This document shows positions 10,630 through 37,755 of a DNA stretch of 40,088 nucleotides, piece after piece. A model generated the notes under the pieces. The model was not told where the DNA came from and did not search any database. It saw nothing but the letters and a program-made list of their open reading frames with translations. Position 1 is the stretch's first letter; each line of letters begins with the position of its first letter. Source of the DNA: a virus; the IMG/VR virus record IMGVR_UViG_3300042894_000659, positions 1 through 40,088 of that record. One strand, 5' to 3'. The position numbers were made by a program, and so were the translations under genes.

Positions 10630-11038
10630 TGATGACAAGAAGCGAGTGGGACACGATGCTACAGACTTTGCAGCATTTGGGCTTCCAGATCCTTTCCGTG
10701 GATACGCAAAGCGAAACAATAACAATAAGACCGATACCGACCCGATAGATTTTAACCAGGTAAAGTTTGTTACTGATATGTGGGAAGTGTTAGATGCAGC
10801 AGGCAACCTGCTCATCAAGAAGCACAAAGACTACGGCCCAACTAACATCAGTCTCTCACCTGGTGGACCACTCAATGGTTTGCGTGTGCGTATGCACGAC
10901 AAGACTGCACGCATCAACCACTTGATTGATAGCGGTGCAACACCAGAGAACGAGTCACTACGAGATAGCTTCATTGATCTACTGAACTATAGTGCTATCG
11001 CACTTATGGTCTTAGATGGTAAGTGGCCTCGTGACTGA
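10622..11038 (+). CDS. Nmad1-like (DUF1599) protein
   Basis: The conserved stretch is KHKDYGPTNISLSPGGPLNG, followed by RMHDKTARINHLIDSG and SLRDSFIDLLNYSAIALMVL. This matches my memory of the nucleotide-modification-associated domain 1 family, an all-alpha protein linked to phage base-modification gene sets. Residues 1-40 are charged and likely disordered. It overlaps the primase by 8 bases and the methyltransferase by 8 bases, so it may serve nucleotide or DNA modification. The biochemical role is not established. Confidence 0.7.
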   Translation: MYDDDKKRVGHDATDFAAFGLPDPFRGYAKRNNNNKTDTDPIDFNQVKFVTDMWEVLDAAGNLLIKKHKDYGPTNISLSPGGPLNGLRVRMHDKTARINHLIDSGATPENESLRDSFIDLLNYSAIALMVLDGKWPRD

Positions 11039-11495
11039 AGGGTTCTATAAGACTGACACGTTCAAGACATCTAACGATGACACTTGGACTACACCCAGAG
11101 ATTTCTTTGACAAACTTAACAAAGAGTTTAACTTTGGTTTAGATGCAGCAGCTCTTGCTTCATCAACCTTAGTACCTGATAACTGGTATGGTCCTGACCA
11201 TACAGAAGAAGGCAAGCGTGATGCGCTTATCATTGATTGGAACCACAACTCACGCGGCAAACCTATTTGGTTGAACCCACCTTATGGTAGAACTATTAAA
11301 GATTGGGTGCGTAAAGCTGACAGTATTGCTAAGGCAGGTGGTGTAGTGGTGTGCTTAGTGCCTGCACGCACCGATACTTCTTGGTGGCACGAGCATTGTA
11401 TCCATCACGAGATTAGATTTATTAGAGGCAGATTAAAGTTTGGTAATCAAAAGAACTCAGCCCCATTTCCTAGTGCAGTAGTGGTGATGCGATGA
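11031..11495 (+). CDS. Phage DNA N6-adenine methyltransferase (Dam-like)
   Basis: The protein has the order of phage Dam-like enzymes: DTWTTPRDFFDKLNKEFNF, then FGLDAAA, then the catalytic WLNPPYGRTI (NPPY) motif and late VVCLVPARTDTSWWH. It should methylate adenine at N6 using AdoMet, perhaps to protect phage DNA from host restriction or to mark replication. GTG 11031 overlaps the preceding gene; an in-frame ATG at 11016 would add five residues. It ends at an ATGA overlap with the sigma-like gene. Confidence 0.88.
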   Translation: MTEGFYKTDTFKTSNDDTWTTPRDFFDKLNKEFNFGLDAAALASSTLVPDNWYGPDHTEEGKRDALIIDWNHNSRGKPIWLNPPYGRTIKDWVRKADSIAKAGGVVVCLVPARTDTSWWHEHCIHHEIRFIRGRLKFGNQKNSAPFPSAVVVMR

Positions 11496-12124: not shown

Positions 12125-12504
12125 ACGAAGAGTTATTATTTACCTTCTTGCGTGAGAGTTTGTATCCAGATTTAGTAAAGTCTGAGGGCATCTTTGATGC
12201 CTATGACTGTATCTCTAGGCAAGCAGGTCACTACATAGAGTTAAAGTGCAGGGCTACACACTACAACACCTTGCTGATTGAAGAGATGAAGTATCGCAAG
12301 CTCATCACCCAAGCAGCAGAGCGTGACCTTGTTCCCTTCTACATTAACTCTACTCCACAAGGTATCTTCTCCTTTGACCTATTGGATTTACCAGAACCAG
12401 TATGGTTTAATCACCAGATGCCAGCGACTACCGAGTTTGATAGGGTTGAGAAGGTTGAGAAGTTAGTAGGTTATCTACCTATAGAGGAAGGGGTGCAGCT
12501 CTAA
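12121..12504 (+). CDS. Hypothetical protein, possible PD-(D/E)XK fold
   Basis: The 127 residues read FDAYDCISRQAGHYIELKCR, a strand turn that resembles the D-x(n)-E-x-K catalytic core of restriction-type nucleases, followed by a helix with basic residues (EEMKYRKLITQAAERD) and a FYINSTPQGIFSFDL strand pair. It overlaps the sigma-like gene by ATGA and the zinc-ribbon gene by one base. Family membership is a pattern match and not certain. Confidence 0.6.
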   Translation: MNEELLFTFLRESLYPDLVKSEGIFDAYDCISRQAGHYIELKCRATHYNTLLIEEMKYRKLITQAAERDLVPFYINSTPQGIFSFDLLDLPEPVWFNHQMPATTEFDRVEKVEKLVGYLPIEEGVQL

Positions 12505-12677
12505 TGCAGTATGACTATCGTTGCCCTGATTGCAATACAGTATTAACTATCGAACGTAGTATCCACGAGGAACCACGTGAGCCTTCTTGCTTTGACTGCC
12601 ATATCCCAATGATACGTAAGTGGGACTCACCTGGTGTCACCTTCAAGGGTAAAGGGTTTTACTCTACTGGTGGATAG
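12504..12677 (+). CDS. FmdB-like zinc-ribbon protein (57 aa)
   Basis: The N-terminus YDYRCPDC, then ERSIHEEP, then CFDCHIPMIRKW is the FmdB/putative regulatory zinc-ribbon pattern. It has two CxxC pairs, then a Gly/Phe tail (TFKGKGFYSTGG) usual in this family. The start overlaps the previous stop. It is the last gene of the rightward operon before the bidirectional terminator. Confidence 0.85.
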   Translation: MQYDYRCPDCNTVLTIERSIHEEPREPSCFDCHIPMIRKWDSPGVTFKGKGFYSTGG

Positions 12678-12724
12678 TGTTATGATTAAGTTCTCGGTAG
12701 GCAATCCCGCCTATGAGTGCTAGC

Positions 12725-12758
12725 AAAAAGCCCCCGCCAGTTACGGCGAGGGCTTTTT
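12725..12758. terminator. Bidirectional rho-independent terminator
   Basis: A 14-bp stem with one mismatch (12725-12738 with 12745-12758) has an A5 run on its left edge and a T5 run on its right edge, so it can end transcripts on both strands. It lies between convergent operons: the rightward replication operon and the leftward small-gene operon that ends with the cytosine methyltransferase at 12775. Confidence 0.92.
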
Positions 12759-12774
12759 GTTTGCCAGGAAAGGG

Positions 12775-13416
12775 TTAGAAACCCAGCACATCTATTAGTT
12801 GCTTACCTATAGTCCGAGTATATACAGGTGGGATAGCTTCAACAAGTTCTCCCCAGATCATCCAATCAATTCCCATTGCTTCTCGCGCCTGCTCTATAGT
12901 CTTTGCGGTATGCCCCCCCCCCGGAATTTCATCACGCATAGATCCGTAGATACCTACTGGCTTTCCCTGCTTCTTGTGGTCACATACTGAACCTGTTAAT
13001 TGCAGGTTAGACTCAAAGAGTCTATGTCTGCGTACCTTTAGATCAAAAGATGAGCCACAAAATTGCACCGGGTTAATCAATGGAGCACCCGGTACGTTCT
13101 CAATCACGTAAGGTATACCACTAGCAATCAACGCCTCTCGTGTCTGAGGTATCAGATCTACTTTGTCCGTGCTCTTACCCTGAGCGTTGCGTAGATGCTG
13201 AGTGCGTGAGTGTGTCTGACAAGGTGGGCTAGCTGCAATCACATCAAAGGTACGCAAGTAATCTAAGTCTTGCAGTATCTCCAAGCAGTCTGTTTGTATA
13301 AACTCAAAGGGATAACGCTTCTGCTTCTTGATGTCAATACCAGTAACCTCAAAGCCAGCATCAGCGTATCCTTTGCTCGCTCCTCCAGCCTTGCAGTAAA
13401 GATCAAGTAGTCTCAT
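12775..13416 (-). CDS. DNA (cytosine-5) methyltransferase, phage-type
   Basis: The 213 residues have motif I (LDLYCKAGGASKGYADAGF), catalytic motif IV (ASPPCQTHS, Cys66), motif VI (VIENVPG, Glu106) and a final motif X-like stretch (PPVYTRTIGKQL). It is short because the target-recognition region is reduced, as in many phage enzymes. It methylates cytosine C5, probably to resist restriction. A run of ten G in coding sense (12913-12922) encodes Pro-Gly-Gly-Gly at residues 165-168. A one-base slip would shift the frame and remove motif X. It follows the transglycosylase gene by a TGATG overlap and ends the leftward operon. Confidence 0.92.
   Translation of the reverse strand: MRLLDLYCKAGGASKGYADAGFEVTGIDIKKQKRYPFEFIQTDCLEILQDLDYLRTFDVIAASPPCQTHSRTQHLRNAQGKSTDKVDLIPQTREALIASGIPYVIENVPGAPLINPVQFCGSSFDLKVRRHRLFESNLQLTGSVCDHKKQGKPVGIYGSMRDEIPGGGHTAKTIEQAREAMGIDWMIWGELVEAIPPVYTRTIGKQLIDVLGF
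12913..12922. repeat. Homopolymer C10/G10 tract inside methyltransferase gene
   Basis: Ten consecutive C on the plus strand are G10 on the coding strand. It is the longest G/C run noticed in the window. Runs of 8 or more G/C inside genes are classic slippage sites for phase variation. The frame is intact in this assembly. Confidence 0.9.
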
Positions 13417-13856
13417 CAGTACCAGCCGACTCTATCGGAGTGCCGGAGAGCACTGCAGAAACTTCCTCGATAACGGTGTTGAGTGTATCGTACAGCGTGA
13501 AGGATTTGTAGTTCAGGTTCTCCACTACGTTCTCTAAGGAGCTGAGCAATTCCGAAAGCTGAGCTAATTGGTTTACCCGAAGCGTCTCTTGGGCGAGCCA
13601 AGTGGTCGAAGCGGGATTCACGGGTCCAAAGTGTGACCGCACACTCTCTCTGTTGTGCGTTGTAACCGAGTGCTCTAAGGAAACTAATCGCAAGTGCTTT
13701 GTTCTCACGCTTTTCCTCCATTGTAGCCTTTGTTCTTTCGACTATGCTTAGGTCTTTTGGTAGTTCTTCTTTTACGTTGTGGTCCGGAGCGAGTACCCAT
13801 AGTAACGCTAACACGGGTATTCCTAGCAACCCAATTCTTACCTTCTGTTTGGTCAT
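13416..13856 (-). CDS. Transglycosylase-like wall enzyme with N-terminal anchor
   Basis: GGAGGAG precedes the ATG. Residues 1-24 form a signal-anchor (KVRIGLLGIPVLALLWVLA). The C-terminal domain is lysozyme-like: a glutamate in LWTRESRFDHLARP, then SSAFGIAQLL, then PELQILHAVRYTQHRY and a C-terminal VGWY. This is the pattern of SLT/aggregation-promoting-factor-like domains common in actinobacteria and their phages. It may remodel peptidoglycan from outside the membrane. It is in the leftward early-type operon, away from the lysis cassette. Its start overlaps the upstream gene for 152 bases in another frame. Confidence 0.78.
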   Translation of the reverse strand: MTKQKVRIGLLGIPVLALLWVLAPDHNVKEELPKDLSIVERTKATMEEKRENKALAISFLRALGYNAQQRECAVTLWTRESRFDHLARPRDASGKPISSAFGIAQLLRERSGEPELQILHAVRYTQHRYRGSFCSALRHSDRVGWY

Positions 13857-13992
13857 TCTCTTTCTCCTCCGCTAGCAAGTCTCTATACACGTTAGGATAG
13901 AGGTGAGACAGGCGCACTAGCGCCCGGTCCCTTGCTCGTCTGTAGTTTCGATAGTGAATAGCTTGTTTCCCGCTGACTTCCTTACTCTCCAT
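13705..13992 (-). CDS. Small basic hypothetical protein
   Basis: The 95 residues start MESKEVSGKQAIHYRNYRRA and continue RDRALVRLSHLYPNVYRDLL, a helical, Arg/Tyr-rich stretch that recurs in actinophage small proteins. The C-terminal third is Lys/Arg rich and lies over the signal-anchor coding part of the next gene, so its exact end is less sure. The start overlaps the gene before it. Confidence 0.6.
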   Translation of the reverse strand: MESKEVSGKQAIHYRNYRRARDRALVRLSHLYPNVYRDLLAEEKENDQTEGKNWVARNTRVSVTMGTRSGPQRKRRTTKRPKHSRKNKGYNGGKA

Positions 13993-17418: not shown

Positions 17419-17646
17419 ACCCTTAGCCGTACGGTTAGCCTACCGCGCAGGAACGAGCACCCCCCCATTTAAGTTTTGCCGTCGGCTAGGTATATACTCC
17501 CCAACAAAAAATATTTGCTAAAGTCAAAGCTGCGATCTGGCCTCTGACCTGCGGTTTTAGTACTGTGATGTAACTCACATTAGGAAAGCGAGAAATCCAG
17601 TCCTTTTCCTGCCTTATATATAGTAGGGGAGTAAAACGGGGAGAGT

Positions 17647-35355: not shown

Positions 35356-35359
<4 letters not shown>
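35018..35359 (+). CDS. Tail-fibre-associated beta protein (BppU/Ig-like, 113 aa)
   Basis: TTG 35018 is used because it overlaps the preceding stop. The product is a compact beta domain: [59 protein letters not shown] and [11 protein letters not shown]. This order is typical of the small N-terminal domain of siphophage and podophage baseplate/fibre proteins of the BppU type. It lies directly before the collagen-like fibre, to which it probably attaches. Confidence 0.7.
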
Positions 35360-36681
<1,322 letters not shown>

Positions 36682-36693
36682 TACAATTCTTGT

Positions 36694-37755
36694 ATGAGAT
36701 TTCACGTTATCAGCCTGCCCCATACACAGACAACTAAAGAGTACGTCAACTGTGCCTATACCGAAAAGGTTAGACGCTTTTGTATAATGATGAAGAACCT
36801 TGGTCATACAGTTTACTTGTATGCCAGTGAAGATAATGAAGCACCGGTAGATGAACTAATTACCTGCATCACTAAAGAGCAACAGCAAGAGGCTCTAGCT
36901 GGTAAACACTTTACTGAAGCTGAGTTTAATAATGAGTTACCACACTGGCAGATTTTTAATGGCAAGGCTATTGAAGAACTAGGTAAGCGCCTAGAGCAAA
37001 AAGATTTTATCTGTCTTATCGGTGGAGCATCACAAGAACCTATCGCTAAGGCTTACCCAAACCATATGAGCGTAGAGTTTGGCGTGGGCTATGGTGGAGT
37101 ATTTAGCCAGTACAGAGTCTTTGAATCATACGCTTGGATGCACAGCATCTATGCAATGTTTAAGAACCCAACATCAGTAGATGGCAACTTCTATGATGCG
37201 GTTATTCCTGGTTACTTAGAACCAGAGATGTTTCCGCTGCAAGAGAAGAAAGAAGATTACTACCTCTACGTTGGACGTATGGTAGATCGCAAAGGTATTG
37301 GAATTGCTCAACACGTCTGTAAAGAGATGGGTTTGAAACTTATCTTGGCAGGTCCTGGCAAAGATCCTAAAGTTGAATATGGCGAATGGGTAGGACCAGT
37401 TGGTCCTGAAGAACGAGCAAAGTTAATGGGTGGGGCTACTGCCTTATTTGCACCAACGCTATACATAGAACCTTTCGGTAACGTCGTTATTGAAGCACAG
37501 ACCTGTGGAACTCCAACGATTACCACAGACTGGGGAGCATTTACAGAAACTAATCCCAATGGAGTTACTGGATATCGTTGCAGAAATGCAATGGAGTTTG
37601 CAGCAGCTACAGAGTGGGTGAAGGATTTAGACCCAGTAGCAATACATAAGCGAGCAGTGTCCTTATATTCATTGGATGCTATAGCACCACAGTATGAACA
37701 ATATTTTGCAAGACTCCTTACGTTGTGGGGAGATGGCTGGTATGAGAGGAAATAA
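36694..37755 (+). CDS. GT4-type glycosyltransferase (GT-B fold)
   Basis: The 353-residue protein has the two halves of a GT-B enzyme. The C-terminal half starts YYLYVGRMVDRKGIGIAQHV, has KLILAGPG and ends with the donor motif EPFGNVVIEAQTCGTPTITT followed by DWGAFTE. This matches GT4 glycosyltransferases that use nucleotide-sugars. No signal or membrane segment is seen, so it works in the cytoplasm. It follows the collagen-like fibre after 12 bases, with no clear ribosome site, and precedes the tail adaptor. It may add sugar to the fibre or to a host surface molecule. The target is inference. Confidence 0.9.
   Translation: MRFHVISLPHTQTTKEYVNCAYTEKVRRFCIMMKNLGHTVYLYASEDNEAPVDELITCITKEQQQEALAGKHFTEAEFNNELPHWQIFNGKAIEELGKRLEQKDFICLIGGASQEPIAKAYPNHMSVEFGVGYGGVFSQYRVFESYAWMHSIYAMFKNPTSVDGNFYDAVIPGYLEPEMFPLQEKKEDYYLYVGRMVDRKGIGIAQHVCKEMGLKLILAGPGKDPKVEYGEWVGPVGPEERAKLMGGATALFAPTLYIEPFGNVVIEAQTCGTPTITTDWGAFTETNPNGVTGYRCRNAMEFAAATEWVKDLDPVAIHKRAVSLYSLDAIAPQYEQYFARLLTLWGDGWYERK

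Follow-up and report, generated by a model that had tools for sequence, protein, structure and literature searches.

A poly-G tract as a probable phase-variation switch in a phage-encoded C5-cytosine DNA methyltransferase

Introduction

Does a run of ten G residues inside a phage DNA methyltransferase gene act as a switch, the enzyme being made or not according to the length of the run? The question arises from a 40,088-base virus record of IMG/VR that carries phage genes, the whole of which is called the window here. A preliminary description of this DNA suggested that the methyltransferase might be phase-variable. Poly-G on/off switching of Campylobacter phage receptor-binding proteins has reportedly been shown by experiment (Sorensen et al. 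2021, Cell Rep 35:109214). Hypermutable poly-G tracts are described in the receptor-binding-protein genes of Campylobacter phages (PMC10877375, PMC10579305, PMC11868660), a review states that phase variation has been shown to occur in phages (PMC11868660), and bacteria are well known to have phase-variable DNA methyltransferases (phasevarions; for example PMC4889913, PMC9577141). Among titles and the opening lines of abstracts in the open-access literature we recognised no report of repeat-driven switching of a phage DNA methyltransferase.

The methyltransferase gene and its G tract

The 213-residue product of the gene (Table 1) matches the PF00145 C5 DNA methylase profile with 24.9 bits (cut-off 22) and the phrog_363 DNA methyltransferase family with an E value of 2.7e-38. 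The segments S63-P64-P65-C66-Q67 and E106-N107-V108 are invariant across 22 aligned sequences, and the PCQ and ENV that they contain are what we take to be the conserved catalytic motifs of C5 methyltransferases. When the predicted model was searched with Foldseek, 16 of the 17 matches at E <= 0.001 were C5/DNMT-type methyltransferases, M.HaeIII among them, with a TM(query) of up to 0.62. By profile, motifs and predicted fold the enzyme is thus assigned to the C5-cytosine DNA methyltransferases, with methylation of DNA as its predicted activity.

Table 1. Positions in the window of the two methyltransferase genes, the G tract and the related sites
Feature	Position	Strand	Remarks
C5-cytosine DNA methyltransferase ORF	12775..13416	-	ATG start, 213 aa; PF00145, phrog_363, model match to solved C5 methyltransferases
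Site 1 (CKAGGAS)	13375..13395	-	G8-G11 in other lineages; no tract in window
Site 2 (TREAL)	13129..13143	-	G8 in frame in L035, G9 out of frame in L149; no tract in window
Site 3, G10 tract, proposed slippage switch	12913..12922	-	third base of Pro165 codon through Gly168; in frame here
PPVYTRTIGKQL, C-terminal helix lost on frameshift	12796..12831	-	residues 196-207; model helix 197-211
Dam-type N6-adenine methyltransferase	11016..11495	+	159 aa; phrog_111, PF05869; mixed codons, no tract in window copy

Across the tract the plus strand reads CCCCCCCCCC, that is C10 there and G10 on the minus strand, where the codons CCG GGG GGG GGG CAT spell P165 G166 G167 G168 H169; the ten-G tract encoding Pro-Gly-Gly-Gly is therefore where it had been placed. 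It is the sole G/C run of ten or more in the window, where 0.01 such runs are expected on average from 100 dinucleotide-preserving shuffles, and GGG accounts for 26 of the 614 glycine codons in 14 long ORFs of the window. The stretch PPVYTRTIGKQL, presumably a motif-X-like element, lies about 28 residues past the tract. Slippage by one base had been said to cut off the motif X region, and the computed products agree: G9 gives 173 residues and G11 gives 183, and in both the native sequence past residue 168 is gone. In the predicted model (mean pLDDT 76.8), the tract lies within a stretch scored below 50 (residues 154-171) that is followed by three helices, so that a frameshift at this position would remove the last three predicted helices, the motif-X-like one included. 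The window copy, with its G10, is in frame and represents the ON state.

Tract length and reading frame among relatives

Relatives of the enzyme were gathered by a protein-pattern scan of viral contigs, the best 80 of 207 being kept as ranked by tblastn, a ranking that favours intact genes. A pattern of the upstream residues plus G7 found 18 contigs in the whole collection, all 18 matches lying inside the C5 methyltransferase gene, and a free-gap pattern over site 3 gave at least 119 matches; L100 and L101 also matched a pattern but proved by tblastn to be unrelated to the enzyme, and were excluded. Pooling gave 139 distinct sequences for the site-3 count, 135 of them parsed and 4 unparsed. 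Every one of the 118 whose longest G run is 5 or less is in frame, while the frame is lost in 11 of the 17 whose run reaches at least 7; the window is among the other six. These proportions (11/17 against 0/118) lend support to the suggestion of a phase-variable phage methyltransferase. Homologues with mixed codons had been named as a result that would speak against it, and they do occur, 118 of the 135 having no long G run. The tract is thus not universal, but such tractless homologues do not refute a switch because the frameshifts occur only where there is a long G run.

Beyond the tract, the OFF contigs of site 3 continue the gene in another frame. All 11 are at -1 and none at +1, unlike site 1 and the Dam-type gene described below; this is more one-sided than random slippage suggests and counts against the switch. 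The closest ON and OFF relatives at this site are about 92% identical in the gene (they differ by about 8% or more), and three near-identical pairs agree in tract length (L002/L003, L073/L074, L090/L093), a fourth (L069/L070) being cut at the tract. Among the fetched contigs the window's own lineage had no near-identical partner with another tract length. The sequence of contig L070/L085 breaks off within the tract after G8, which is how an assembler might behave where lengths are mixed.

Tracts at other sites and in a second methyltransferase

A scan of the whole gene revealed G8-G11 tracts near codon 10 in other lineages (site 1, which we take to be the motif I region) and near codon 93 in two more (site 2). 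Here the frame was scored from the best frame of the conserved segments on either side of the tract. Of 144 sequences, 91 could be scored at site 1 and 93 at site 2, with 53, 51 and 10 unscored at sites 1, 2 and 3. At site 3 this scoring lacks the OFF contig L069, since L085, its longer twin, stops within the tract, and also L083 and L092, two in-frame contigs with only part of the gene; the site-3 figures are accordingly those of the 139-sequence count. Frameshifts are once more absent from genes with short runs, which are in frame in 74 of 74 cases at site 1 and 91 of 91 at site 2. The 17 long runs at site 1 comprise 12 in frame, 4 at -1 and 1 at +1, and the two at site 2 comprise one in frame and one at +1.

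A tree built without the site-3 columns calls for at least 8 changes of the site-3 tract, 6 of them forced by well-supported (starred) branches, and for at least 5 changes of the site-1 tract, 4 of them forced, gains and losses being indistinguishable in these counts. Tracts at site 1 and at site 3 never coincide in a row of the tree, and 99 of the 131 rows are tractless at all three sites. Because the tracts occupy different sites, one single origin is excluded; they recur at several sites and in two methyltransferase families.

The second family, unrelated to the first, is that of the Dam-type enzyme, relatives of which have G7-G11 tracts at an AGG[V/T]VV site. Here too the best 80 by tblastn were kept, with the same preference for intact genes, and these together with matches to a tract pattern yielded 85 distinct scorable genes: 55 of 55 with short runs are in frame, and the 30 with runs of 7 or more divide into 24 in frame, 3 at -1 and 3 at +1. 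A further 22 of 143 loci were weak and were left out, seven of which are in two segments and may be out of frame too. One contig (L084) has a G11 in its Dam-type gene, out of frame and located about 170 bases before its C5 methyltransferase gene begins, and the C5 methyltransferase tract is out of frame as well, giving two tracts in one phage. Elsewhere in the Dam-type gene, L028/L159 have a G8 (GASGGGAVWLNPPYG) that is possibly a second tract site.

G8-G9 runs were also seen in ORFs of a larger C5 methyltransferase (PF00145), namely in L296 (1385 and 1546), L297 (1389), L252, L241 and L269 (minus strand), and one such ORF ends just after its G run. In a frame test of this larger enzyme, none of the 8 distinct loci with both ends present formed one open frame, although 3 of the 8 lack a G7 run. 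Finally, a short ORF (ELACIGGG), at a distance of about 600-670 bases from where the Dam-type gene match begins and beyond it, has a recurrent run in L222, L251 and L265, G8 in two and G9 in one, perhaps a switch outside the methyltransferases; neither the tract-bearing ORF of L265, to which L222 and L251 have homologous stretches, nor an ORF of L294 had a Pfam match.

Enrichment of the tracts beyond chance

For the C5 gene, the comparison of gene with flanks covered 73 non-duplicate contigs, all retrieved with protein patterns lying clear of the tracts. A G8 or longer run was present in the gene of 23 contigs (23 runs in 47 kb), as against a single run in 352 kb of flanking sequence; another tally, 38 runs inside and 2 outside, draws in part on contigs retrieved by tract patterns and was kept out of the enrichment estimate. 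The Dam-type gene gave 20 runs in 34.7 kb and its flanks 11 in 264 kb, and 7 of those 11 sit in or beside ORFs that match the larger C5 methyltransferase. Synonymous resampling of 66 in-frame genes produced a mean of 0.34 genes with G8 or more and a maximum of 3 in 300 runs, compared with the 15 observed, so that amino-acid sequence and codon use do not account for the tracts. What these genes contain is, as in a contingency locus, a long simple repeat in the coding frame beyond chance expectation.

Near-identical contigs of different tract length

The best single piece of evidence for switching is a pair of Dam-type contigs, the in-frame L315 with G8 and the out-of-frame L319 with G7. Over 2,881 bp they are 99.93% identical, a single substitution and the missing G being their sole differences. 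A second Dam-type pair, L343 (G9) and L316 (G10), is 99.49% identical over 1,752 bp, with 8 substitutions besides the tract. At site 1, two contigs of different samples (99.39% over 2,135 bp) have G10 and G9, and another pair (98.83% over 2,645 bp) has G11 and G9, the tract being in each case the only indel; one site-1 cluster contains G9, G10 and G11, its pairs being 98.0 to 98.8% identical over 1.6 to 2.7 kb. Thus, both at site 1 and in the Dam-type gene, near-identical genomes differ in tract length in a way that changes the frame. In an unselected tally of all fetched pairs of different contigs that are at least 97% alike over at least 1 kb across the tract, with the loci of one contig collapsed by name, 6 pairs differ in length and 8 agree. 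Pairs at 99.7 to 100% commonly agree; some of these may be one population sampled more than once.

All of these sequences are metagenome assemblies, and one contig, the L070/L085 mentioned above, stops inside its tract, so it might be argued that G runs of 7 to 11 have simply been miscounted and that the out-of-frame contigs are artefacts of sequencing or assembly. We consider this improbable. Miscounting could not give rise to the tracts as such, and these are concentrated in methyltransferase genes and exceed what codon usage predicts; out-of-frame states are found at G7 and G8 and not only at G9 to G11; and the same off length was recovered from separate samples (L073/L074 and L090/L093). 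Moreover, none of 36 homopolymers of 5-6 bases differed in length in 7 near-identical pairs, a set chosen because most of its members differ in tract length.

Constraint and decay in the OFF state

About as improbable, in our judgement, is that the methyltransferase is dispensable and being lost, its G runs being mutational hot spots with no selection for switching. OFF copies are indeed numerous, and some copies of the enzyme have been lost outright, as there is a TAG at codon 38 in the OFF contigs L090 and L093 and another at codon 41 in the tractless L007 and L008. Nevertheless, the gene body and the region past the tract are constrained, even in OFF relatives. Past the tract, pairs that include OFF members give dN/dS values between 0 and 0.16, where these are defined; the nine pairs used for comparison, one of which (L054-L055) has a site-1 tract, give a similar 0 to 0.13. 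Three relatives, L087, L091 and L095, are all OFF, with the sequence around the tract spelled in three different ways; among them synonymous and nonsynonymous changes number 5:4, 5:3 and 6:1, for about 20 synonymous and 88 nonsynonymous sites. The numbers are small, but such constraint fits genes that would spend much of their time ON. Progressive loss also leaves unexplained why synonymous positions have repeatedly turned to G, at three sites and in a second gene.

A frameshift at site 1 falls near codon 10 and one at site 3 far along the gene, yet at every tract site the outcome would be that the full enzyme is lost; this favours an on/off switch over a special short isoform. The least probable of the alternatives is that the -1 state at site 3 is not OFF at all, a ribosome slipping by -1 on G_GGG_GGN, or RNA polymerase slipping, to give both a short and a full protein: the uniform -1 state of the 11 contigs, the heptamer of the XXXYYYZ kind that most of them contain (by eye) and the conserved region past the tract would suit it, but there are +1 as well as -1 members over site 1, site 2 and the Dam-type gene, L095 has only T-G7-A and not an X_XXY_YYZ arrangement, a short product would be useless near codon 10, and, in place of the one fixed frame relation of a programmed -1 frameshift, in-frame, -1 and +1 states occur over the sites (0 and -1 at site 3 alone).

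A switch for methylation of phage DNA

We therefore return to the switch, and regard it as probable that the G10 run is a contingency (phase-variation) locus of the phage-encoded C5 methyltransferase. Slipped-strand replication would add or drop one G in the tract; a genome with G10 would make the full 213-residue enzyme and be ON, one with G9 or G11 would have its native sequence end at residue 168 and be OFF, and the phage population would be a mix of methylating and non-methylating genomes. Methylation would shield such DNA from ordinary restriction and expose it to methylation-dependent (type IV) nucleases. Since methylation would be double-edged in this manner, a mixed burst could infect a mixed host population. 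We infer that slippage takes place within one phage population, that it is reversible, that the OFF state means loss of activity and that the phage benefits. The benefit is likely to be one of hedging, between hosts whose restriction spares methylated DNA and hosts with type IV nucleases, and the diversified progeny DNA may help the phage to withstand restriction.

A phase-variable phage methyltransferase is, we believe, well supported by comparative genomics, and more broadly than originally proposed; tracts at three sites of the C5 gene and in a second enzyme exceed the claim of the preliminary description. Not quite as likely to be right as wrong is a more ambitious proposal, namely that this set of phages, many of them from the same kinds of environmental samples, possesses a combinatorial epigenetic switchboard in which poly-G has repeatedly come to lie in small C5, Dam-type N6-adenine and probably large C5 methyltransferases, sometimes two per phage (as in L084), with bursts of differing methylation as a hedge.

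Were the switch real, phages would share the repeat-slippage bet-hedging of bacteria, one lineage releasing differently marked genomes, and some phage methyltransferase genes that look broken would be in the OFF state and not dead. Tract lengths in existing metagenome reads could then serve to test, in the wild, the trade-off between ordinary and methylation-dependent restriction.

Relation to known systems

The closest precedent is the poly-G switching of phage receptor-binding proteins. The Campylobacter phage system is likewise phage-encoded, with poly-G in a coding gene and an on/off switch of frame; it differs in concerning receptor binding and not DNA modification, in belonging to other phages and hosts, and in having reportedly been shown experimentally. 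Bacterial phasevarions share the switching of a DNA methyltransferase frame by a repeat tract, but the window enzyme is encoded by a phage, among replication and structural genes, and probably has an anti-restriction role. The E. coli K1 system (PMC13001214) also has a phase-variable gene carried by a phage, but there it is the host capsule that is modified and no DNA methyltransferase is involved.

The small C5 methyltransferases of the phrog_363 type, from phages of Mycobacterium, Streptomyces, Paenibacillus, Gordonia, Arthrobacter, Vibrio and Rhodococcus, are homologous to the window enzyme and of about 210 residues, and 294 of the 295 records are less than 60% identical to it. In the four of these records whose DNA was read (isolates L214-L217), there is no run of 6 or more G/C or of 7 or more A/T.

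The phage and its surroundings

The genes of the window include an integrase, a DnaB-like helicase, a primase, RusA-like resolvases, the large subunit of the terminase and a major head protein. The presence of an integrase suggests a temperate phage. Streptomyces phages are the nearest annotated named relatives of the terminase, at about 43% identity, and on that basis an actinobacterial host is our guess. A scan of genome contigs with the C5 enzyme gave no relatives among 47 candidate stretches, and hence no host. A distant blastn of window positions 12500-13900 against named phages gave no match.

Three other features of the window may be recorded. A hairpin with flanking A and T runs (12725-12758, by eye) lies between convergent genes and is likely to be a two-way terminator. 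There is a C7 run (G7 on the minus strand) at 17460-17466, between 17145 and 17989 and outside the listed ORFs of at least 80 aa. Lastly, a collagen-repeat, tail-fibre-like protein (PF01391) is encoded at 35356-36681 and adjoins a glycosyltransferase-like gene at 36694-37755.
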